Below are positions 1,485 to 13,778 of a DNA stretch of 42,184 nt, in pieces. Every line of letters starts with the position of its first letter. The stretch's first letter is position 1. The stretch covers positions 1-42,184 of the forward strand of contig CAIQKQ010000302.1 in the NCBI GenBank assembly GCA_903872425.1, read 5' to 3'. The notes under the pieces were generated by a model. That model was given only the letters and a program-made list of their open reading frames with translations, was not told the origin of the DNA and searched no databases. Origin of the DNA: an uncultured Opitutia bacterium (GTDB lineage Bacteria; Verrucomicrobiota; Verrucomicrobiia; Opitutales; Opitutaceae). Position numbers and translations under genes: made by a program.

Positions 1485-2753
1485 TTATGCGTCAAGCACG
1501 AGGTCGCCCGCCGGGAGGGCAACACAGGCGAGGCAAGTGCCGGGCTCGGGCTTGCTGCCCGGTTCCTGTGCGTAAGTGACGTTGCCGCTACGGATGGCTG
1601 TGACGCAGGTACCACATTGTCCGGCGCAGCAACCGGAGGGAAGGGCGACACCCTGCGACGTGGCGAACTCAAGAATATTGGCGGCGGCGCGATCCCAAGC
1701 GACGACTTTGTTGGACTTGCCAAAGGTGATCTTGAACGCGGGCGCAGCGGCGGCGTCGGCCGTGGTGGCGGCGGGTGCGGCGGCCTTTTTCTTGACACTG
1801 GCGGGGCCAAACGCCTCGAAGTGAACTCGGTCGTCGGGCACGCCCCAAGCCGTGAGCGCAGTGGTGATTGACTCCATAAACGGGCCAGGGCCACACATGA
1901 AGTAGTCGTAGTTGTTGGACGGGAGCAGTTCCTTGAAAAGGTCCACCGTCACGCGGCCCTTGTGCTGGTAGTCCACGCCCTCCTTGTCATCAGGTCCAGG
2001 GGCGGAGTAGCAGACGTGCACGCGGATATTTTCATTCTTAGCGGCCAACTCGACAACATGATCCTTCATGATGTGGTCGGCACTGTTGCGGCAGCCAAAG
2101 AACCACCATATCTCCCGCTTGCTGCCGAGTGCGATAAGCTCGTTCATCATGCTCAAACAAGGCGTAATACCAACGCCGGCCGAGATCAGCACCACCGGAC
2201 CCTCTTTGCTGGTGTCGAGAAAGAAGTGACCGCCAGGAGCCTTCACATCAAGGATCGTCCCTTCCTGGATGTGGTCATGGAAAAAATTAGACGAAAGTCC
2301 GGCGGGGTGTTCGGGCTTAGAGGGCGGGCAACGTTTGATGGTGACGCGATAGTAATCCGGATTAAGGCGGTCACTGAGGCTGTAGCAGCGAATAACCTTT
2401 TTTTTCTGTCCGGGAATCTCAAGCTCGAACGTGAGATATTGGCCGGGCTTGAAAGGCGGAAGGGGCTTCTTGTCGTGCGGGGTGAGATAAAATGAGCAGG
2501 CGTCGCCCCGATCTGGGACTTTCTTGGCGACGGAAAACTTGCGAATACCGCTCCATGGCGCGCCAGCCTCATCGGCCTTGCGTTGGGCACGGCGGGCTGA
2601 GGCGAGACTGGTGAGGAGCAAATCGCGGCCAACCTGCGCCGAAAAAGCCTGCGCGCGAAGTGCGCGCGTCTGGCCGACAACGAGGGCGACGAGCTGGCCG
2701 GCAACCAAGGCGATAAGGAGGGCGCCCCCGAGGAGCAGAAGAAAATTGAGCAT
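1485..2753 (-). CDS. Membrane-anchored FAD/NAD(P)-binding oxidoreductase with C-terminal plant-type 2Fe-2S domain
   Basis: Electron-transfer flavoprotein of 422 residues. An N-terminal hydrophobic helix (about residues 1-27) anchors it in the membrane. Next come a ferredoxin-reductase-type FAD domain with RCYSLSD, an NAD(P) domain with GVGITPCLSMM and MCGPGPFM, an Ala-rich linker, and a C-terminal 2Fe-2S domain with GCCAGQCGTC plus a distal Cys. The order FAD-NAD-2Fe-2S resembles phthalate dioxygenase reductase; NqrF, also membrane-anchored, has the 2Fe-2S domain first. I chose the ATG at 2753 because it starts the anchor helix and lies 13 bases after the porin stop; an upstream in-frame start would run into the porin gene. 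It is the last gene of the porin/pentaheme operon, so it probably exchanges electrons between NAD(P)H and the local cytochromes or quinone. The physiological partner is unknown. Confidence 0.85.
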   Translation of the reverse strand: MLNFLLLLGGALLIALVAGQLVALVVGQTRALRAQAFSAQVGRDLLLTSLASARRAQRKADEAGAPWSGIRKFSVAKKVPDRGDACSFYLTPHDKKPLPPFKPGQYLTFELEIPGQKKKVIRCYSLSDRLNPDYYRVTIKRCPPSKPEHPAGLSSNFFHDHIQEGTILDVKAPGGHFFLDTSKEGPVVLISAGVGITPCLSMMNELIALGSKREIWWFFGCRNSADHIMKDHVVELAAKNENIRVHVCYSAPGPDDKEGVDYQHKGRVTVDLFKELLPSNNYDYFMCGPGPFMESITTALTAWGVPDDRVHFEAFGPASVKKKAAAPAATTADAAAAPAFKITFGKSNKVVAWDRAAANILEFATSQGVALPSGCCAGQCGTCVTAIRSGNVTYAQEPGSKPEPGTCLACVALPAGDLVLDA

Positions 2754-2766
2754 GGACAGGTGGAAG

Positions 2767-4233
2767 TTAGAATTTACGCCGCAGCTCAACGCGAACACCG
2801 GCGATGTCGGGCAGGAGATCGCGGCGAGCGGCAATAGCATCAGCGCGTAGAATCCATGCGTTGTTCAACGGGAGCTGCCAGCGGACACCGACACCGTATT
2901 GCGCGCCGGGCGCGGTACGCTGGGCGGGGTTGCCGAAGGTGTTAAGCCCGGCGAGCTCGAAAACGAGCTGCTGATGGAGATCGAAGAGGTATTCGATACC
3001 GAGCGCCGCGCCGTAAGTGTTGTGGGCAGTATCATCAAGTTTCGGGAAACCGGTGATACCGTCCGTCTCGAACGTAATACCCGTGTTCAGCAACACGCCA
3101 CCTGCGCCAGCAGCACGAGCAAGCGACTGGGGCCGGTGAAATCCGACCCACCCGTTGAGGTAGGGCACAAGCGTCGAGGGCAACGACGACACGAGGCTAT
3201 TTTCGACGAGAAGAAGCACCCCATCAGCGGTGCGCGCCTTGCCGGGCGCAGGATTCTGACCGACATTGGCAATAATGCGCACACTGTTCGACAAGCGGTC
3301 GAAGTAGCGCTTGGTGAACGCGGCGGAGATATTGTGGTAGCTCAGGTCGCTCGACGCACCGGTGCCTTCAACATAGCCATAACCGAGTTCCCAGTAGCCG
3401 TGGTTGGCCTCAATGAAGGTCGTCACGCCAAACACATTGCCATCGTGGTCGCCACGCAGAGCAGGCGTCGTCACCTGGTCAAAGCCGGCGAAAAAGGTCA
3501 CGTCCATGTTGGTGATCTGGAGTGAGGGGCTGTTGCGCGCCGGGATAGTGAACGCGAAACCGTCAAAGGCGTCCTGCAGCCAGACGCCGTTTTGGAAGAG
3601 CAGCGGAATGAGGCCGACGGTGAACGGCAGGTCGTGGCTGTTGTCGCGCCCGGTGAAGCCGGCAAAGAGGCGTGCGAGGTCGCCCTCGAAGAACAGTGCG
3701 TCGGGCGTGAGGTCAAACTCGTTGTTGCTAACACGCGGCCGTGTGCCGCCAAACTCAGCGAAGGTCCCCTTGCCGTTCTGGTCGAGCGGCGTGAAAAAAT
3801 AATGAATGCGCTCGGTAGCGGTGAGCTTCAGATCGAGGTCAAGGTTAAGTTTGGCGGCGGCGAGGCCCTTATCGGTGGCGCCGTTGTCGTTCCAAGCGAC
3901 CACATTGCGGATATCGCCGTAAAACAGGAGTTGAGGGAACAGCAGATTTTTTTCGCCGAACAGATTTACGCCGGGCTGGAACTGGCCAGGACCGTAAAGC
4001 TCGCGGCCCAGCTCGAGCAGCGGGCGTGCGGTTGGGTTGGGATGCTTCGCGCCGTAGATGTCGAGCTGACGCTGGTAGTCATAAGGAAGCGCGTTAACCG
4101 GGTCGGGCGCAAAAGCGGGCTTGACCCCGTTATTTGGCACGGGCGTGGCGCGCGAATCCATCGCGGGCGGCGTCTCGGCGGCAATGGCGCACGTGACAAT
4201 AGCGAACGTGGTGAGGAGGAAGCGCGGGCTCAT
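2767..4233 (-). CDS. Outer-membrane porin-like beta-barrel protein
   Basis: A 488-residue exported protein starting at the ATG whose first residues, MSPRFLLTTFAIVTCAIAA, form a typical Sec signal peptide. The body is rich in alternating aromatic/hydrophobic stretches with Asn/Asp/Gly turns, and it ends in Lys-Phe, the terminal aromatic expected for BAM-dependent outer-membrane proteins. I see no named porin signature. Its start overlaps the stop of the pentaheme cytochrome gene as ATGA, so the two are probably translationally coupled. That coupling suggests a joint function, for example a barrel that houses or contacts a periplasmic cytochrome, or that admits its substrate. Barrel and export are well supported; electron-conduit function is inference. 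Confidence 0.75.
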   Translation of the reverse strand: MSPRFLLTTFAIVTCAIAAETPPAMDSRATPVPNNGVKPAFAPDPVNALPYDYQRQLDIYGAKHPNPTARPLLELGRELYGPGQFQPGVNLFGEKNLLFPQLLFYGDIRNVVAWNDNGATDKGLAAAKLNLDLDLKLTATERIHYFFTPLDQNGKGTFAEFGGTRPRVSNNEFDLTPDALFFEGDLARLFAGFTGRDNSHDLPFTVGLIPLLFQNGVWLQDAFDGFAFTIPARNSPSLQITNMDVTFFAGFDQVTTPALRGDHDGNVFGVTTFIEANHGYWELGYGYVEGTGASSDLSYHNISAAFTKRYFDRLSNSVRIIANVGQNPAPGKARTADGVLLLVENSLVSSLPSTLVPYLNGWVGFHRPQSLARAAGAGGVLLNTGITFETDGITGFPKLDDTAHNTYGAALGIEYLFDLHQQLVFELAGLNTFGNPAQRTAPGAQYGVGVRWQLPLNNAWILRADAIAARRDLLPDIAGVRVELRRKF

Positions 4234-6089
4234 GGCTTTTGGGCAGAAGTGACAGTGAACTCGACCGTGGACTCGTGTAGGTTGATCATCCATTCGTTCA
4301 TCGCTTGGTTCATCTCGGGCGTGGCACCGATGAAATTCATAAAATACATCGGCTCAGCACGGCTGCGGAGACGGACCGAAAGGCGGTAGCGGCCTGGAAC
4401 CTTGAGCGCGCTGGCGGGAATGGTGTAGGCGGCCTCGCGCTGCGAGAGCGGCGGCAAGCTTCGGCCCTCCATGCGAACGAACGGCGGGTGATTGAGCACG
4501 CTGGTCGGCACGCCGGCAGGGCGGATGAAGGGAAGTTGGTCGCCGTCGAGGTTGATCGGAAGATACATCTCACGATCAGTGCCTTTGACATTGGTCGTGA
4601 GAAACTTTGTCTGCAGGTTGAAGAGTTGCGTGTCGGCCGGTAGCTTGCCGGAGCGCACATCACTCGAATGGAGGTCGGCCATGTCACCTTGGCTATCCAC
4701 ATAGCCGGATTCCCAGACGTTGCGACCAGTGGCGTCGAAGAGAGCGACGTTGAGCCACAGCTCGGGCTGTGCGCCCAAGGAACCGGAGGGGAAGTTATGG
4801 CCGGCGTTGGTGTTGCGGAGCGTGTAGGAGACTTTGAGTGGCTGATCGGTGACAAGATCGCTCTTGAAGAACGGACCGTCGAGATGCGAACCATTGGCCA
4901 TAACGGCCTCTCGGAGTGTCCGCTTCTGTTCAAGCATTTTTAGATTCTCGTCGACGATGTCACGGGCATCTGCGCGATCCTCGGGGCTGTCCCATTCTTC
5001 AGGGAACTTGTAAGCGGAAGGATTGGCGGCCACGGTCTTCTCGAACGCGGGCGTGCCCCAGCCGGCGCGGTAGTCAAACTTGAGCCATGTCTGCATCGAG
5101 AATTTTTTCGCCTGCGGGTTGTGCGGGAAAATGCCAGGGTGGACGATCGGATAACCGGGGCCATAAAACGCGTGGTTGGAGTGCTGACGGCCGGGATTGA
5201 TCGGTACGCCGCCGACAACTGCAGCGGGTGCGGTGGTGTAGCCCTCGGCGAGGCCAGGGTTTTTTCCCATGTGACACTCTTGGCAGGTCGTGCCGTTTGC
5301 GGCAGCAGGCGAGGCGCGATACTGGTCCCACACGACCTCAAGTTTAATGCCGGGATGCACGGCGACCTGATGGCACGAGACGCAGAACTCGGAGGTCTTG
5401 ATGGTCGTGAACTGGATGGCGGTGTTGTGAATCACCTGGCCGGGGCCGGTCTCTGACTCAGTAAGCTTAACATGAAAATTATCCTTCTGCCCCGTGACCA
5501 TCGCCACGCCGTCGCCATTGAATGGGCCGAGCATCGGCTTGGTGAGATCACCCTGCTCGATACGGCGCTCGCCATTGACCTTGGTGTATTGCTCCTGCAC
5601 GCGGTGGCACGTCACGCAGGTGATACCTTCGCGCGAAACATCGGCGCGCTGCCAGAGCGGCAAGTCGCGCTTCTCCCCCATCGTCGTACTGACGGCGGCG
5701 TGGCAACGCATGCAAAAATAGCCGATGGTTCCCTGCGCGAGGTCGTTGATCTTCTGTTCAAATTTGTGGAACACCGGCGAAATCGAGGCGTAAGCGTGGT
5801 TGGATGAACGCCACTCGTCGTAAATCTGTTTATGGCACACTGCACATTCTGAGGCGCTGGGAAAATTGCTTTTGGCAAACGCCGCGATGTGCGGGTCAAC
5901 CGGGTTAACGGGTTGTTTCTTCGGCGGAGGAAGGGGTTTGGCGGTCGACCTGGCTGGCGCAGGCGCTGGGCCACCGCCGAGCAGATCATCACCACCGAGC
6001 AGATCGTCGCTGGCGGCGGCTGCCACAACTGACATGTGCAGGGCGAGGCTGAACGTGGCAAAAAAGGTAAGAAGTGGATTTATCTTCAT
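4230..6089 (-). CDS. Periplasmic pentaheme cytochrome c (c554-like) with DDLLG repeat
   Basis: A 619-residue protein with a signal peptide (MKINPLLTFFATFSLALHMS, cleavage near residue 26). Five CxxCH heme motifs lie at about residues 82, 126, 158, 236 and 269. The mature N-terminus begins with DDLLGGDDLLGG and then a Pro/Ala/Lys linker to residue 65. After the heme domain, about 350 residues without heme motifs include a beta-rich domain with AGHNFPSG. Spacing and layout resemble multiheme proteins of the cytochrome c554 superfamily, but it is longer than c554. The start at 6089 is chosen for the signal peptide; upstream in-frame codons would give no export signal. It is the first gene of the minus-strand operon, overlapping the porin by four bases and divergent from the tetraheme gene. 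It is probably a periplasmic electron carrier or multiheme reductase; the substrate is unknown. Confidence 0.85.
   Translation of the reverse strand: MKINPLLTFFATFSLALHMSVVAAAASDDLLGGDDLLGGGPAPAPARSTAKPLPPPKKQPVNPVDPHIAAFAKSNFPSASECAVCHKQIYDEWRSSNHAYASISPVFHKFEQKINDLAQGTIGYFCMRCHAAVSTTMGEKRDLPLWQRADVSREGITCVTCHRVQEQYTKVNGERRIEQGDLTKPMLGPFNGDGVAMVTGQKDNFHVKLTESETGPGQVIHNTAIQFTTIKTSEFCVSCHQVAVHPGIKLEVVWDQYRASPAAANGTTCQECHMGKNPGLAEGYTTAPAAVVGGVPINPGRQHSNHAFYGPGYPIVHPGIFPHNPQAKKFSMQTWLKFDYRAGWGTPAFEKTVAANPSAYKFPEEWDSPEDRADARDIVDENLKMLEQKRTLREAVMANGSHLDGPFFKSDLVTDQPLKVSYTLRNTNAGHNFPSGSLGAQPELWLNVALFDATGRNVWESGYVDSQGDMADLHSSDVRSGKLPADTQLFNLQTKFLTTNVKGTDREMYLPINLDGDQLPFIRPAGVPTSVLNHPPFVRMEGRSLPPLSQREAAYTIPASALKVPGRYRLSVRLRSRAEPMYFMNFIGATPEMNQAMNEWMINLHESTVEFTVTSAQKP
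5973..6008 (-). repeat. Tandem DDLLGG peptide repeat at the mature N-terminus of the pentaheme cytochrome
   Basis: Residues 28-39 read DDLLGG twice in tandem, just after the predicted signal cleavage site and before a Pro/Ala linker. The same motif occurs in two further pairs in the decaheme cytochrome about 5.4 kb away. It looks like a short binding motif on a flexible tether. Confidence 0.8.
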
Positions 6090-6234
6090 GCGCGAGTGAG
6101 CAACTTCGTTGAGGGAAGATGCGACACCGGCAAGCCCTTTTGTGAAAAAATTGCGGTCCACAAAAAAAATTAACAAAACCGATTGCCTTGCGCGCGGAAG
6201 TTCCGCCATTGATTTCTTGCACACCCAAAAAACC
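6090..6234. promoter_or_regulatory. Divergent promoter region between the two cytochrome operons
   Basis: A 145-base gap separates the divergent starts of the pentaheme and tetraheme cytochrome genes, so it must hold both promoters. It includes an A-rich run (about 6158-6178). I could not identify a confident -35/-10 pair or a symmetrical FNR/CRP-type site by eye. Confidence 0.4.
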
Positions 6235-7227
6235 ATGTCACGCCGTCTCCTTTTCACCGTCGTCACCTCCATCCTTTTGTTTACGGCCGCGCGTCCCGCG
6301 CTCGCCCAATCCGACCCGTCCAAGATCACTGGCCCCGAGGCCTGCGTCGCCTGCCACAAGCTAGAGGGTGCCGCATGGCAGGAGATGAAGCATTTCAAAA
6401 CCTTCGACGAGCTGCACCGTCGCCCGGAGGCGAAGGAGATTGCTGGCAAGCTCGGTATTGCCAACATCAAGACTGAGAGTACCTGCGTCCAATGCCACTA
6501 TACGTCAATGGGCGCAGCCGGCGCGGCCAAGGTCATTGCTGGCGTCTCCTGCGAGCTCTGCCACGGCGCAGGCGCAGACTGGACGAAGGTGCACAACGAC
6601 AAGACTAAGCCCACACATATCGCAGATGCTGAGAAACTCGGCTTCATCTCTCCTAACAATATCTACAAACTCGCGTCAAACTGCTTTCAGTGCCATACGG
6701 TACCCAACGAAAAGCTCGTCAACACCGGCGGCCATCAGGTCGGCAGCGCATTGGAGCTCGTTGCGTGGACGCAGGGCGAAGTTCGCCATCATTTTCTGAA
6801 CGGCAAAACCAACGCCGATGACACCCCCGACCGCAAGCGGATGCTCTACCTCGTCGGCCGCGTCGTTGATCTCGAGTTCAGCCTGCGTGGTTTCGCCGGT
6901 GCCGTAGAAAAAGGCAATTTTGTCAAAGGCATGAACGCGCGTATCACCGCCGCCAAGGCCGAACTGCAAAAAATCGCCGACAAGCTCCCCGATGGCGTAG
7001 CCAAAACCGACGTACTTGCCATCATCGCCGCAGCGCCCAAGCCCGCTGTCGCTGCCGATGGCGACACCGGTCTCAAGGTTACAAACAAAGACGATATCCT
7101 CGCCGGTGCGAAGACCATCTCTGGCCTCGGGCAGAAAATCAGCGACACCTACAAGGGTTCCGACCTCGCTGCCCTCGACTCGTTACTTCCGACGGCCAAC
7201 CAAGGCACACCCTTTACTGCGCCTTGA
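6235..7227 (+). CDS. Periplasmic tetraheme cytochrome c554-like protein
   Basis: A 330-residue protein with a signal peptide ending ARPALA/QSD. Four CxxCH motifs sit at about residues 37, 84, 106 and 150, as CVACH, CVQCH, CELCH and CFQCH. Four hemes in the N-terminal half, with HGAGADWTKVH after the third, fit the cytochrome c554 (Cytochrome_C554) family. In nitrifiers that family accepts electrons from hydroxylamine oxidoreductase; no such enzyme is seen here. The C-terminal half lacks heme motifs and is Ala/Lys-rich. The ATG at 6235 is chosen for the signal peptide. The gene is divergent from the pentaheme operon and lies 71 bases before the cNMP/Fe-S gene, with which it may be co-transcribed. 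Likely role: periplasmic electron shuttle for the cluster. Confidence 0.85.
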   Translation: MSRRLLFTVVTSILLFTAARPALAQSDPSKITGPEACVACHKLEGAAWQEMKHFKTFDELHRRPEAKEIAGKLGIANIKTESTCVQCHYTSMGAAGAAKVIAGVSCELCHGAGADWTKVHNDKTKPTHIADAEKLGFISPNNIYKLASNCFQCHTVPNEKLVNTGGHQVGSALELVAWTQGEVRHHFLNGKTNADDTPDRKRMLYLVGRVVDLEFSLRGFAGAVEKGNFVKGMNARITAAKAELQKIADKLPDGVAKTDVLAIIAAAPKPAVAADGDTGLKVTNKDDILAGAKTISGLGQKISDTYKGSDLAALDSLLPTANQGTPFTAP

Positions 7228-7298
7228 ACCGCTGCGCTCGCTTCCGTTGGTCGGGCGCGCCCAGCCTAATTCCCGAAGCTTTATTTTTTTAAACACAC

Positions 7299-9083
7299 AT
7301 GGCTGAACCCACCGCGACCATCTCGCGTCCGCAACGCTGGGACGTCCCCTTCGACTCCAAGATGGACGCGGCGGCGGTGGACAGCGTGCTCGCCATCGCG
7401 CCGTTCAGTCGTATTGATCCGACCAACTTCCCCAAGAGCACGCCGCTACGCGACATCCTGCTCAACGACACCAGTCTGCGCTCATTTCGCAAAGGCGAGG
7501 TGATCGTCCGCGAGGGTGACTATGGTAACTCGGCTTTCTTCATCATCCGCGGCTCCGTTAAGGTCGCGCTTGGTAAAGACGCCATCCCCGCCACCCTCCT
7601 CGGCCGCCGGGAAACGCATAAGAAAAATTTCCTCGAAACGCTCGGCCAGCTTTGGCGCAACCCGCTCCATCCGGAAGTGCGCGACACCGCGCGCTACTCG
7701 GCTGCCCGCGCCGCCTCGGCCGCCGCCCGCAGTGGCGACGCGCGCTCGCCGCTGCCTGGTGGCAGTCGCCCCCCACTTGCCCGTAAAGACGAGGTCAAGG
7801 CTGGGGCCGTGTTTCTTTCCGATATCCCCGCAGTGCTCAAAGGCGGCACGGTTTCCCTCGGCGCCGGACTATTTTTCGGTGAGATTGCCGCGCTCGGCCG
7901 TACACCGCGCACCGCGAGCATCTTCGCCGACGAGCCCAGCGAGTTGCTGGAAATCCGCTGGCAGGGCTTGCGCGAATTGCGCCTGCGCGCTCCAGAAATC
8001 AAGCAATTCGTTGACACCAACTATCGAAAATACTCCCTCGAAAACCACCTCCGCGAGACGGAATATTTCAAGGATCTCACGCCTGAGGAGCTGAAATTGG
8101 TCGCCGATCAGACGCGGTTTGAGACCTACGGCGGATTCGACTGGCATACCGACTACAAAAAAAATCGCGATACCAGCCCTGTCGAGCGCATGCGCGGCGA
8201 ACCCGTCATCGCCGAGCAAGGCCAATACGCCAATGGCCTAATCCTCATCCGCGCCGGCTTCGCACGCCTCAGCCAAAAATACAACCATGGCGAGCGCACA
8301 GCCAGCTACCTCGCACGCGGCCAGATGTTCGGTTTTAAGGAAATCGCCCATAACTGGCGGTCTAAGGACACGGTCTCCCTTCGCTATACTTTGCGCGCAC
8401 TCGGCTATGTGGACGTGCTCGTCGTCCCCACGCATGTCGTCGAAAAATACGTCCTTCCCAAGATTGCCGCTGCCGATCTGCCCCCGCTCATCGAGGCGAA
8501 ACACGAGGCCGAGAATCTCATCTCCCCGCTGGAGCAGCTGAGCGGCAAACTGCCGACTGATTTCGTCGAGTTTCTCGTGGATCACCGTTTCATTAACGGC
8601 CGAGCGACGATGCTCATCGACCTCGAGCGTTGCACGCGTTGCGACGACTGCGTCCGCGCCTGCGCCGCCGGCCACGATAACAACCCGCGCTTCGTCCGCC
8701 ACGGCCAGCAACTTGGCTCGTATATGGTTGCCACCGCCTGCATGCACTGCCTCGACCCGGTGTGCATGATCGGCTGCCCAACCGGTGCTATCTCGCGCGA
8801 CTCCGCCGGTGGCCAGGTTGTCATCAACGATGTCACCTGCATCGGCTGCTCCACCTGCGCCAACAGTTGCCCGTACAATAACATTCAAATGGTGGAAATC
8901 CGCGATGCCCGCGGCGAGCCTCTCCTTGATCAGGAAAAAAAGCCCGTAACCAAGGCTGCCAAGTGCGACCTCTGCCTTGAACAGCCCGCCGGCCCCGCCT
9001 GCGTCCGCGCTTGCCCGCACGACGCCCTGACTCGCCTCAACATCCGCGATACCGACACCCTTGCCGCATGGCTGCAACGCTGA
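7299..9083 (+). CDS. Fusion of two cNMP-binding domains with a four-cluster [4Fe-4S] ferredoxin domain
   Basis: A cytoplasmic-looking 594-residue protein. Domain 1 (about 45-235) is a cyclic-nucleotide-binding fold with a canonical phosphate-binding cassette FGEIAALGRTPRTAS at about 193-207. An Arg/Ala-rich insertion of roughly 70 residues interrupts it. Domain 2 (about 250-410) is a second, degenerate copy. The C-terminal domain (about 445-575) has 16 cysteines in four sets: CTRCDDCVRAC, CMHCLDPVCMIGC, CIGCSTCANSC and CDLC-x8-CVRAC. This matches DmsB/NrfC-like proteins that wire electrons to membrane cytochromes. There is no DNA-binding helix-turn-helix. The next gene, a di-heme cytochrome b, overlaps its 3' end by 16 bases, so the Fe-S domain probably docks to that subunit. 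Ligand-gated electron transfer is an attractive inference, not shown. Confidence 0.85.
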   Translation: MAEPTATISRPQRWDVPFDSKMDAAAVDSVLAIAPFSRIDPTNFPKSTPLRDILLNDTSLRSFRKGEVIVREGDYGNSAFFIIRGSVKVALGKDAIPATLLGRRETHKKNFLETLGQLWRNPLHPEVRDTARYSAARAASAAARSGDARSPLPGGSRPPLARKDEVKAGAVFLSDIPAVLKGGTVSLGAGLFFGEIAALGRTPRTASIFADEPSELLEIRWQGLRELRLRAPEIKQFVDTNYRKYSLENHLRETEYFKDLTPEELKLVADQTRFETYGGFDWHTDYKKNRDTSPVERMRGEPVIAEQGQYANGLILIRAGFARLSQKYNHGERTASYLARGQMFGFKEIAHNWRSKDTVSLRYTLRALGYVDVLVVPTHVVEKYVLPKIAAADLPPLIEAKHEAENLISPLEQLSGKLPTDFVEFLVDHRFINGRATMLIDLERCTRCDDCVRACAAGHDNNPRFVRHGQQLGSYMVATACMHCLDPVCMIGCPTGAISRDSAGGQVVINDVTCIGCSTCANSCPYNNIQMVEIRDARGEPLLDQEKKPVTKAAKCDLCLEQPAGPACVRACPHDALTRLNIRDTDTLAAWLQR

Positions 9084-9904
9084 CACCTTCCTTCCGCCGT
9101 ATCCTCCTCCGCGCCGGCTTACTCGCCGTCGCCGTCGGCGGCGTCTGGTCCTGGCAGCATGGTCTAGCGATCTCGCTACACCACACCGCCATTTTCACTG
9201 GGCTCGCTCTTCTCGGCACGTGTCTCGGGCTGGCCCTGTTCAACTCGCGCAAAAAGCTCCCCTTTCTCCCGCTACTGCGCGCCGCGACGTGGACCCAGTT
9301 TCATATCTACGCCGGCTGGTTCTCAATTTTCCTTTTCCTGCTACACACCGGCCTGCGTTGGCCCGACGGGTTGTTTGAGAGCTTGCTCGCGAGCGTTTTT
9401 ACCCTCGTCGCGCTGAGCGGTGTGTTTGGACTCTATTTGTCGCGGACGTTGCCTGCACGTCTCACCCACCATGGCGAAAACGTCATATATGAGCGTATCC
9501 CGGCCCTGCGCTCCAAACTCCAGCGCGACGTCGAGGCGCTCGTCCTCAAAAGCGTCGAAGATACGAAATCGTGCACTATCGCCGATTTTTACGCCACCCG
9601 GCTCAAGAGCTACTTCGATCGGCCCCGGAATTTTTTTTACTACCTCACCCGTGGCCAGGCTCCATTGAAAAATATCCTCAGCGAAATCCGCCTCTTGGAG
9701 CGCTACACCAACGAACGCGAGCACGCCATCCTCGCTGAGCTCACCGAGTGCCTGCAGGCGAAGGAAAACCTCGACTTCCAGCTCGCTGGCCAGGGCCTGC
9801 TCAAATACTGGCTCTTCGTCCACATCCCGCTTACGGCGAGCCTGCTCCTTCTCGGTGCGTTCCACGGTTTGCTCGTATTTTACTTTGCCGGTGGACTCCG
9901 CTGA
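9068..9904 (+). CDS. Membrane di-heme cytochrome b subunit
   Basis: A 278-residue integral membrane protein with about five transmembrane helices. Two helices each carry a His pair 14 residues apart: H79/H93 (FHIYAGW and LLHTG) and H252/H266 (FVHIPL and AFHGL). This is the classic arrangement for two b hemes stacked across the membrane. A soluble loop of about 110 residues (130-240) lies between them. I chose the ATG at 9068, which overlaps the preceding gene by 16 bases; an in-frame ATG at 9011 would add 19 polar residues deep inside that gene. Placed between a four-cluster Fe-S protein and a membrane-anchored decaheme cytochrome, it most likely passes electrons between the cytoplasmic side or quinone pool and the periplasm. 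The exact family is not recognised. Confidence 0.8.
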   Translation: MAATLTPSFRRILLRAGLLAVAVGGVWSWQHGLAISLHHTAIFTGLALLGTCLGLALFNSRKKLPFLPLLRAATWTQFHIYAGWFSIFLFLLHTGLRWPDGLFESLLASVFTLVALSGVFGLYLSRTLPARLTHHGENVIYERIPALRSKLQRDVEALVLKSVEDTKSCTIADFYATRLKSYFDRPRNFFYYLTRGQAPLKNILSEIRLLERYTNEREHAILAELTECLQAKENLDFQLAGQGLLKYWLFVHIPLTASLLLLGAFHGLLVFYFAGGLR

Positions 9905-9910
9905 CCCGCC

Positions 9911-12238
9911 ATGAAACGCCTCCAGCCCTTCGACTTCAAGTCCAGCAACTACGAGCGTCCCAACCAAACTTGGGTCTGCGGACGTAAGGACTGTGGCGAC
10001 GCCTGTCAGCTCGGCCCCGACCTCAAGGGTAACTGCCGTGCCACCTCAGAGTGCCGCCCGCGCAAGGATGGCGACCGCTGGTTTTGCACCCGCGCCGACG
10101 CTCGCGGCGGCAAATGCCCGGACGGTCCGCGCCCTGACGGCACCTGCTGCCGCCCTATCCCGCCTTGCGTCCCCCGCCGCAGCGTCCGCTCCCGGCGTGG
10201 CATCGCGGTGCTGCTCGTCTCCGCGCTCACGCTTGGTTGTATTTTCATCGCGCTCGGCCACTCGGACCGCGATGACTTTTTTAATCCCGGCCCGCTGACC
10301 GCACCGCACGCCTCGGGTGCGGCCAACTGCGCGCTTTGCCACACTGCGGCGCAAATATCCTCCGGCGAGCTTTTCAAGGGCGGGTTGGCCAAAAGCAGCG
10401 CTCATTCCGACAGCCAGCTCTGCCTCAACTGCCATAATTTTGGCCCCCGCGCCGGCGAGCCCCACAATCTTGCGCCGGCCATCCGGGTTGCTCTGACCAA
10501 AAAAATCGCCGGCCCGGCCGCCAGCTCACGCCTCGCCGTCAGCGTCGCGGCCGAAATTGTTCCGACCGATGCCAGCAACCAACTCGCCTGCGCGACCTGC
10601 CACCAAGAACACCACGGCCGCGACGCCGACTTGAAAAAGATCGCCGATGCCAGCTGCCAGGTCTGCCATACAAAGCAATTTGAAAGCTTCGCATCCGGCC
10701 ACCCTGGCTTCGACAAATACCCCTACACTCGCCGCACGCGCATCGAGTTTGACCACGCCGCGCATATTGGGACCTATTTCGAAACCGCCAAGAAGTCAGG
10801 ACAGACTCCCCCCACGCAGTGCAATGATTGCCATACTCCTGCGTCCGACAACCGCTTGATGGTCACCAAAGGCTTCGCCGCGAACTGCGCTGCCTGCCAT
10901 CTCGACAGCATTATCAAGCCCGGTTCGAAGGGCCTTGCCGTTCTCAGCATCCCTGGCCTCGACAAAAAATCCCTCGACGCCAAGACCCCCGGTATTGGCC
11001 AGTGGCCGGCCGACGCCGACGGCGAACTCACGCCCTTTATGCGACAGCTGCTTGCGTCGGATGAGAAAACCGCCGCCGCCCTCGCAACCCTCAAGGACGC
11101 TGACCTTACTAATCTTGCCAGTGCCAACCCAGCCACAGTCGCCGCCGCCGAGCAGCTCGCTTGGGCTCTGAAAGATTTCTTCGCCGACCTTATCACCACT
11201 GGCCACGCTGCGCTGCAAAAACGCCTCGGCCCCAGCGCTCCGGCCGCCCTGCTAGGCCAGCTTCCAGCCGACAGTCTGAAAGCCTTCACCCAAACTGGCT
11301 GGTGGCCCGACCTTCTTGCCGAAGTCGCCGCCCATCGTGCCGGTCAGCCACCGACAAAACCCGCTCCGCCTGTTGCGCCGCCGGCTCCGGCTGCCACCTC
11401 AAAACCCGCCGTCACCAATAACAACGACCTCCTCGGCGACGATCTCCTCGGCGAGACTCCAAAACCCGCCCCCGCCTCACGCCCAACGGCTCCCACTCCG
11501 ACCGCACCCAAACCGGCTGCAACCGACGATTTGCTCGGCGACGACCTTCTCGCTGGCCCGGCCCCCACCAAACCCGCTGCTCCATCTACCCCCAAGGTCC
11601 CGACACCCGTTGCCCCTGAGAAATGGGCCGCCACCGGTGGCTGGAGCGTCTCACAGACTGACTTCACACTGCGATATAAGCCCTCCGGTCATGCCGACGC
11701 GTTTCTCCAAGCTTGGCTCGATCTCACCGCTCAGGCCGTCACCACACCTGCCAAGGACGCTCCACCAGCTGCCGTACCGGTTTCTGCGGCCGCTCGTGCA
11801 ATTTTCACCCAGATCTCTGCCGCCAGCTCCTGCGTGAAATGTCACAGCGTAGACGACACCCCAACTGCCACCGGCCACGCCACCGCCCTGCTCGTCAACT
11901 GGCACGCTGCCGCGCCGATGCCCCAGTTGCACACGTTTGTTAAATATTCCCATGGCACGCACTTCAGCCTGCTTGACGAGCACGGCTGCCAGATGTGTCA
12001 CCAACTCGCGCCAAATGCCGCCGCTAGCGGGTCCAGCTACACCGCCGCTTTCAAGGACAACCACGACCCGCTGAAATTTAAGAGCAGCTTCGAACCGCTC
12101 AACCAAGCCACCTGCGCCCAGTGCCACGTTGAGCGCGGTGCCGGTACAAGCTGTCTGCTCTGCCACAATTACCATGTCGGCGACATAGCCCCAGCGAAGG
12201 TTAAGGCCTCATTTAGCGCCCCAACCGCCCGTAAATAA
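9911..12238 (+). CDS. Membrane-anchored decaheme cytochrome c with Cys-rich N-terminus and DDLLG repeats
   Basis: A 775-residue protein. Residues 1-90 are hydrophilic with ten non-heme cysteines, including two similar units CQLGPDLKGNC and CPDGPRPDGTC. One transmembrane helix follows at about 97-116. Six CxxCH motifs lie at about 140, 171, 227, 249, 304 and 326. Then come an Ala-rich helical stretch (about 340-455) and a Pro/Ala linker with two DDLLG pairs (506-514 and 539-549). Four more CxxCH motifs are at 641, 693, 735 and 748. The anchor puts the hemes in the periplasm and the Cys-rich segment in the cytoplasm. It starts six bases after the cytochrome b stop, so the pair is probably one complex. 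I infer that it takes electrons from cytochrome b and hands them to the soluble cytochromes. No single known family covers its full length. Confidence 0.85.
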   Translation: MKRLQPFDFKSSNYERPNQTWVCGRKDCGDACQLGPDLKGNCRATSECRPRKDGDRWFCTRADARGGKCPDGPRPDGTCCRPIPPCVPRRSVRSRRGIAVLLVSALTLGCIFIALGHSDRDDFFNPGPLTAPHASGAANCALCHTAAQISSGELFKGGLAKSSAHSDSQLCLNCHNFGPRAGEPHNLAPAIRVALTKKIAGPAASSRLAVSVAAEIVPTDASNQLACATCHQEHHGRDADLKKIADASCQVCHTKQFESFASGHPGFDKYPYTRRTRIEFDHAAHIGTYFETAKKSGQTPPTQCNDCHTPASDNRLMVTKGFAANCAACHLDSIIKPGSKGLAVLSIPGLDKKSLDAKTPGIGQWPADADGELTPFMRQLLASDEKTAAALATLKDADLTNLASANPATVAAAEQLAWALKDFFADLITTGHAALQKRLGPSAPAALLGQLPADSLKAFTQTGWWPDLLAEVAAHRAGQPPTKPAPPVAPPAPAATSKPAVTNNNDLLGDDLLGETPKPAPASRPTAPTPTAPKPAATDDLLGDDLLAGPAPTKPAAPSTPKVPTPVAPEKWAATGGWSVSQTDFTLRYKPSGHADAFLQAWLDLTAQAVTTPAKDAPPAAVPVSAAARAIFTQISAASSCVKCHSVDDTPTATGHATALLVNWHAAAPMPQLHTFVKYSHGTHFSLLDEHGCQMCHQLAPNAAASGSSYTAAFKDNHDPLKFKSSFEPLNQATCAQCHVERGAGTSCLLCHNYHVGDIAPAKVKASFSAPTARK
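11426..11452 (+). repeat. DLLGDDLLG peptide repeat, first pair in the decaheme cytochrome
   Basis: Residues 506-514 read DLLGDDLLG after an Asn run (NNN) in a Pro/Ala-rich linker between the two heme-binding regions. Similar to the pair at 11525-11557 and to the pair at the start of the mature pentaheme cytochrome. Confidence 0.8.
11525..11557 (+). repeat. DDLLGDDLLAG peptide repeat, second pair in the decaheme cytochrome
   Basis: Residues 539-549 read DDLLGDDLLAG in the same Pro/Ala/Thr-rich linker. The codons differ from those of the first pair (ttg, ctt and gac replace ctc and gat), so the peptide is conserved beyond its DNA. Confidence 0.8.
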
Positions 12239-12713: not shown

Positions 12714-13778
12714 TCACCGTCGCTGCTGGTCAGCCAGTGCCCGGGCTACGTTGCGCGCGAAGAACGGCCCTCGGAAAATCATCCCAGTGTAGATCTGCAC
12801 CAGCGTCGCGCCGGCATCGATCTTTTCGGCTGCGCTCGTGACGTCCGTGATACCGCCAACGCCGATGATCGGCAGCCGCCCGCCCGTCGTGTGTGCGATG
12901 TAGCTGATGATCTCCGTTGAGCGATGGCGCAACGGTGCACCACTGAGTCCGCCAGCTTGATTTATTGTGCCAAAAAACCCCGGTCGCGCGAGGGTAGTGT
13001 TTGTCGCGATGATACCATCAAGCGCGTACTCAGCAATCACGCCGAGCACCGCGTCAATCTGTGACCATGTCAGGTCGGGTGCAATTTTCAGCAGCACAGG
13101 CACGCGGCGGCCACCGGGCGCAATGGAACGGCTGCGGTTCGCCGTCGTTACTGCACCAAGCAATTCGCGCAATGGCTTTTCGTCCTGGAGCGCGCGCAGG
13201 CCTGGTGTGTTGGGGCTGGAGACATTGAGTACGACGTAATCGGCGAGGTCGGCGAGTTGCGCGAAGCTGTCGAGGTAGTCTGCCACTGCCTCTTCTGGCG
13301 CAGCGGACTTGGACTTGCCCAAATTTATACCGAGCGGAATGCGCCGCTGGCCCGGCCCCGGCAGACGCGCAAGCCGTAGCGCCACGACCGCCGCGCCGTC
13401 GTTGTTGAACCCCATACGGTTGATGACCGCCTCTTGGTCCGGGTATCGAAACATCCGTGGCCGTTCATTGCCTGGCTGCGCGCGCGCCGTTACCGTGCCG
13501 GCCTCGACATGGCCGAAGCCGAGTGCTGCCGCCGCCGGCCAGGCGATTGCGTTCTTGTCAAAACCGGCTGCGAGGCCGACAGCGTTGGGAAATTTCAACC
13601 CAAAACATTCGACTGGCCGAAATTGGCCCGGCGGGAGCTGCGCCCATTGCTCAAGCGCGCGACATACCGGTCTGAGCCGGCCAAGCCGGGCCATTGCGCG
13701 CACCGCCGACTCGTGCGCGTGCTCCGCGTCCTGCCGGAACAACTGCGGTCGTACCACCCTTTCATAAAAATGACCCAT
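12714..13778 (-). CDS. pyrD: Dihydroorotate dehydrogenase (quinone), class 2
   Basis: Fourth enzyme of pyrimidine synthesis, oxidising dihydroorotate to orotate with FMN and passing electrons to quinone at the inner membrane. The 354-residue sequence starts MGHFYERVVRPQLF, the amphipathic N-terminal extension typical of class 2 enzymes. It shows GLAAGFDKNA for FMN, NVSSPNTPGLR carrying the catalytic Ser of class 2, KIAPD, ATNTT and GVGGI near the C-terminus. Length and motif order match the family. The gene is convergent with rpmG and appears monocistronic. Confidence 0.95.
   Translation of the reverse strand: MGHFYERVVRPQLFRQDAEHAHESAVRAMARLGRLRPVCRALEQWAQLPPGQFRPVECFGLKFPNAVGLAAGFDKNAIAWPAAAALGFGHVEAGTVTARAQPGNERPRMFRYPDQEAVINRMGFNNDGAAVVALRLARLPGPGQRRIPLGINLGKSKSAAPEEAVADYLDSFAQLADLADYVVLNVSSPNTPGLRALQDEKPLRELLGAVTTANRSRSIAPGGRRVPVLLKIAPDLTWSQIDAVLGVIAEYALDGIIATNTTLARPGFFGTINQAGGLSGAPLRHRSTEIISYIAHTTGGRLPIIGVGGITDVTSAAEKIDAGATLVQIYTGMIFRGPFFARNVARALADQQRR

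Follow-up and report, generated by a model that had tools for sequence, protein, structure and literature searches.

What do seven adjacent genes (1485-12238) on a contig of 42,184 nucleotides from an uncultured Opitutia bacterium (CAIQKQ010000302.1, assembly GCA_903872425.1; the whole contig is referred to as the window) do together? They encode three multiheme cytochromes (MHCs), an outer-membrane barrel, a reductase, a cytochrome b and an iron-sulfur (Fe-S) protein, and a sequence-only reading of the window had proposed that they form one conserved and undescribed trans-envelope redox module. The first part of this proposal stands, as the gene set and order recur in many genomes. The novelty does not, given that the gene set matches the putative porin-cytochrome cluster PCC4 outlined in the main text of He et al. 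(2017, Front Microbiol 8:1584; PMC5566968). The locus is almost certainly a PCC4 cluster of subgroup II, judged by its gene content, and probably provides a two-part electron route across the Gram-negative envelope.

Gene content and assignment to PCC4

The seven open reading frames are intact and lie in two divergent arms, penta, por and red on the minus strand and c554, fes, cytb and deca on the plus strand, and Pfam matches and models support the protein types that had been proposed for them:

1485-2753, minus strand: red, reductase with an N-terminal transmembrane (TM) anchor and FAD_binding_6, NAD_binding_1 and 2Fe-2S (Fer2) domains (Pfam)
2767-4233, minus strand: por, outer-membrane beta-barrel of about 18 modelled strands, OprD/Occ/MOMP/AlgE-like, with a C-terminal Phe (AlphaFold2, Foldseek, VIA)
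4230-6089, minus strand: penta, secreted pentaheme cytochrome of 619 residues with 5 CxxCH motifs and a C-terminal immunoglobulin (Ig)-like domain (Pfam, profile, VIA)
6090-6234, no strand: divergent intergenic region of 145 bp separating the arms, a putative promoter region by its position only
6235-7227, plus strand: c554, c554-type secreted tetraheme cytochrome of 330 residues with 4 CxxCH motifs (Cytochrome_C554, PF13435, 9.5e-15)
7299-9083, plus strand: fes, no signal peptide, two cyclic nucleotide monophosphate (cNMP)-binding folds and a four-cluster ferredoxin domain including PF13247
9068-9904, plus strand: cytb, diheme cytochrome b of the inner membrane that contains SGVFG and two WX3HX13H motifs, corresponding to the inner-membrane protein (IMP) of PCC4
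9911-12238, plus strand: deca, periplasmic decaheme cytochrome anchored in the inner membrane by a single TM pass, with 10 CxxCH motifs
9911-10204, plus strand: N-terminal Cys-rich domain of deca ahead of the TM helix, built of two tandem repeats that each hold 4 invariant Cys

The start of por overlaps the stop of penta in an ATGA, the start of cytb lies 16 bases inside the end of fes and a gap of 6 bases separates cytb from deca, spacings which had been read from the sequence before and which the coordinates bear out. Pfam identifies Cytochrome_C554 in both penta and c554 and multiheme domains in deca.

PCC4 was predicted in iron-oxidising bacteria and, in the main text of PMC5566968, comprises a porin, MHCs with 4, 5 and 10 hemes and a redox gene near that of the tetraheme protein. 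Its IMP has five TM helices, an SGXXG motif and two WX3HX13H motifs and was modelled as quinone-active, and in subgroup II a PF13247 Fe-S gene lies upstream of the IMP gene. Every subgroup II feature that can be tested in the window is present, namely the heme counts, the IMP motifs (WTQFH(13)H, WLFVH(13)H and SGVFG in cytb), the PF13247 gene upstream of cytb (E 1.7e-10) and the porin; also shared are a redox gene beside that of the tetraheme protein and the lack of an extracellular MHC. Homologous clusters are carried by a Mariprofundus metagenome-assembled genome (MAG; L070) and by Planctomycetota, both subgroup II lineages. It is these shared features, together with homologous clusters in lineages named by PMC5566968, that place the locus in PCC4. 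Unlike PCC4 as published there, the cluster in the window belongs to Verrucomicrobiota and is divided into two divergent arms, and neither Verrucomicrobia nor cyclic-nucleotide domains are mentioned in the main text of that paper.

Conservation across phyla

Within the class, 188 genomes were sampled, of which 28 hold a relative of fes and 20 a close one. The neighbourhoods around these relatives have fes-cytb-deca-red as their core, and two loci (L031 and L032) carry all seven genes together. A scan of bacterial genomes yielded 80 loci from Verrucomicrobiota, Planctomycetota, Alphaproteobacteria, SAR324, Nitrospinota, Poribacteria and one Mariprofundus MAG, in which the usual order is penta-por-red-c554-fes-cytb-deca; the full set with its order kept occurs in each of the first six of these groups, and red is linked with fes, cytb and deca in most loci. 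The same set had been expected in several Verrucomicrobiota, and this joint check of gene order finds it there and in other phyla. The heme counts first read from the window (10, 5 and 4) are correct and are almost invariant among homologues across phyla, with 10 in essentially all complete deca homologues, a constancy which is therefore not due to chance. Over the genome as a whole, the count of the CxxCH pattern was close to its control, and a Cytochrom_c3_2 search of the same genome missed the decaheme protein itself at the threshold used.

penta and por as a pair

Among the 188 class genomes, penta and por are present in the same five and are adjacent every time. They form an obligate pair, which the inner-membrane half need not accompany: G101 carries penta-por-red and c554-fes-cytb-deca on separate contigs, and in G127 (L140:5558-10925), where no fes relative was found at the threshold used, the red of penta-por-red has a Ferric_reduct (diheme b) TM domain fused to it. 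The fusion supports a path from red through b hemes to penta and suggests that a diheme-b membrane domain beside red can feed penta directly; a similar alternative arrangement of domains has been noted for PCC4 subgroup I.

The AlphaFold2 model of por (mean predicted local distance difference test (pLDDT) score 76) forms a barrel of about 18 strands that matches OprD/Occ, MOMP and AlgE pores over about 320 residues (VIA Z 24-27; also Foldseek), and neither Pfam nor NCBIfam has a family that por matches at E <= 0.1. The model of penta (mean pLDDT 70) is closest among solved structures to the pentaheme cytochrome c552 of Thermochromatium tepidum (5ZE8; profile E 6e-15; VIA Z 16.3 over 331 residues), a family for which a relationship with Geobacter ExtKL and the pentahemes of cable bacteria has been reported. 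All of these share with penta a pentaheme domain and a C-terminal Ig-like domain, but identity to T. tepidum c552, ExtKL and the cable-bacteria PHC family is low (~15-21%) and the gene context is different. The suggestion that penta is the terminal enzyme finds no support, since no sign of an active site was found in its sequence or structure, although it may still have a catalytic role. A reductase of the nitrite or hydroxylamine type was rejected, as the protein has no CxxCK and its nearest relative is cytochrome c552.

The inner-membrane half

In fes, the first cNMP fold has an intact phosphate cassette, and in the alignment G194, E195 and R204 as well as the cluster Cys are invariant; a simple cNMP cassette was found in 86 of 104 homologues. 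Fifteen class III adenylate/guanylate cyclase genes lie 0-3 genes from the module in 14 of 103 loci (L066, L081, L091, L095, L097, L100, L102, L104, L111, L115, L121, L128, L134 and L136), where about 0.8 genes would be expected from genome density. These loci span at least four lineages, but since a single clade supplies about 9 of the 14, independent placements are few. The two neighbouring cyclases that were examined carry CHASE2 or 7TMR-DISM sensor domains. In the genome studied here no class III cyclase gene is present in the window and two are found elsewhere. As far as the protein and its gene neighbourhoods indicate, fes with a bound cyclic nucleotide probably acts as an on/off switch for the inner half. 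Separately, seven divergent fes-cytb-deca loci (L051-L057) lack red and the Cys-rich domain, and in these the second cNMP pocket also looks intact.

In cytb, the motif residues W75/H79/H93, G118/G121 and W248/H252/H266, which include the candidate b-heme ligands, are invariant or nearly so across homologues, and two WX3HX13H motifs occur in 96 of 101. The Cys-rich N-terminal domain of deca, about 95 residues long, has eight Cys that are invariant in ten aligned members (C23, 32, 42, 48 and C59, 69, 79, 86), and a Cys-rich region (mode 10 Cys) precedes the single TM helix in 92 of 101 decahemes. No Pfam family matches this domain, which within the class is limited to deca genes and to the same 20 genomes as close fes. 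Given the Arg-rich sequence that directly precedes the TM helix, the domain probably lies on the cytoplasmic side, and binding of Fe-S or Zn by its two sets of four Cys would be a guess. Neither this Cys4x2 domain nor the cNMP side of the inner half was found described before.

Possible exchange of the outer half

Among loci with a 4-heme c554, penta or por is present in 26 of 47, and among those with a 3-heme c554-like protein in none of 39. In 10 of these 39 the module adjoins a large multiheme protein, which usually neighbours a protein of about 800 residues; the one such protein tested matches Alginate_exp weakly. These type B loci (L037, L038, L040, L046, L049, L050, L112, L113, L120 and L129) combine the inner half with a no-heme protein (~700-970 residues) and a 10-heme protein (~960-1340 residues); LVIVD repeats are present in both large multiheme proteins scanned (L050 and L045). 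A single Verrucomicrobiota clade of the fes tree (Shimodaira-Hasegawa-like approximate likelihood ratio test (SH-aLRT) 100), nested among loci with penta and por, takes in nearly all of the type B loci; the tree is from a quick search and the labels are limited to contig content, so that losses may be overcounted. It is suggested tentatively that PCC4 is an ancestral inner-membrane gate switched by cyclic nucleotides (fes-cytb-deca-red with the Cys4x2 cofactor domain) whose outer halves are interchangeable, being the pentaheme protein and a narrow 18-strand barrel here, and a surface decaheme protein with LVIVD repeats and a large barrel in the derived Verrucomicrobiota clade.

Proposed electron route and its alternatives

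In the route considered probable for this subgroup II cluster, NAD(P)H-linked red and cytoplasmic, cNMP-gated fes would exchange electrons with cytb, which in turn would exchange them with membrane-anchored deca on the periplasmic side. Soluble c554 would act as the shuttle from there to penta, and penta and por would act as a unit at the outer membrane, meeting a redox partner that is external or admitted to the periplasm. The cofactors, the order of the carriers and an extracellular outer end are inferred, and cyclic nucleotide on fes would turn the inner half on or off. That electrons move between the cytoplasm or inner membrane and the outer membrane is judged probable, and that they leave the cell has an even chance. 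As to direction, outward flow, as a disposal of electrons to humics, Fe(III) or another acceptor, is favoured over Fe(II) oxidation, because the genome is heterotroph-like and RuBisCO was not found in its assembly, which is 85% complete; that negative makes CO2-fixing Fe(II) oxidation less likely here. A COX1 oxidase is present in the genome.

Four points weigh against this route. First, the cluster has no outer-surface cytochrome. Second, the barrel of por, modelled with about 18 strands like small-solute porins, may be too narrow to enclose an MtrA-like heme wire. Third, G117, G155 and G064, complete or near-complete Opitutaceae-like genomes, hold the inner half fes-cytb-deca-red with both penta and por absent, which indicates that it can serve another partner. 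Fourth, the literature search found no experiment on PCC4, which the main text of PMC5566968 itself calls putative.

The first three points equally favour a periplasmic redox module with a diffusion porin, in which por would admit a small soluble acceptor or donor, penta or c554 would react with it and no electron would cross the outer membrane. This is nevertheless unlikely for two reasons: first, penta and por are inseparable even where the inner half is missing, as would be expected of a physical complex more than of a general diffusion pore. Second, the inner half of the sister clade has a larger barrel-like protein and a decaheme protein with LVIVD repeats linked to it. A role in balancing NAD(P)H or ferredoxin with the quinone pool, in which fes, cytb and red would work mainly with quinone and the cytochromes would be a side branch, is improbable: it draws on the reductase and the four-cluster Fe-S protein on the cytoplasmic side and on the quinone-active model of the IMP, but no partner of cytb and fes is as constant as the decaheme protein, also in the divergent loci without red.

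The trans-envelope route would also differ from that of known porin-cytochrome systems. MtrAB, MtoAB and PioAB likewise combine a barrel with periplasmic MHCs, with extracellular electron transfer proposed or shown, but por has about 18 strands in its model, whereas MtrB is similar in size to the 26-strand LptD, and the obligate partner of por is a pentaheme protein rather than an MtrA-like decaheme. MtrB is not among the matches listed in the structural comparison of por, which is not evidence of absence. No NCBIfam model, and hence no DmsE/MtrA family, matches deca, which has generic Pfam multiheme matches only, and an Mtr-type conduit was rejected by sequence, given that neither por nor deca has a family match. 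Nor do Nrf, Nap or HAO modules fit, as the NrfB, NrfH and NapC models all score far below their cut-offs on the cluster proteins. The verrucomicrobial clusters from Trout Bog (He et al. 2017, mSphere, PMC5615132) share the phylum and the pairing of a barrel with a periplasmic MHC, sometimes with an extracellular MHC, but their periplasmic cytochrome carries 8 hemes and their porins 20 or more TM strands.

The findings widen the range of a neglected candidate for electron exchange by several phyla, among them Verrucomicrobiota, common inhabitants of soils, lakes and sediments. Three testable handles follow: penta-por as a unit, an electron route switched by a second messenger, and a barrel modelled as narrow, which challenges the idea that all porin-cytochrome pairs operate like MtrAB.

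Flanking genes and further observations

A polyprenyl synthase gene (193-1215) and a dihydroorotate dehydrogenase-like gene (12714-13778) flank the cluster and were placed outside it because they do not recur as neighbours. In Alphaproteobacteria the flanking genes belong to ordinary metabolism and therefore give no clue to the substrate. Four loci (L131, L118, L126 and L135) come from contigs titled Klebsiella pneumoniae or Akkermansia muciniphila, but the fes tree places them within environmental Verrucomicrobiota; these are probably mislabelled MAGs. In a Kiloniellaceae MAG (L130:5619-7823) the tetraheme c554 gene is duplicated in tandem.

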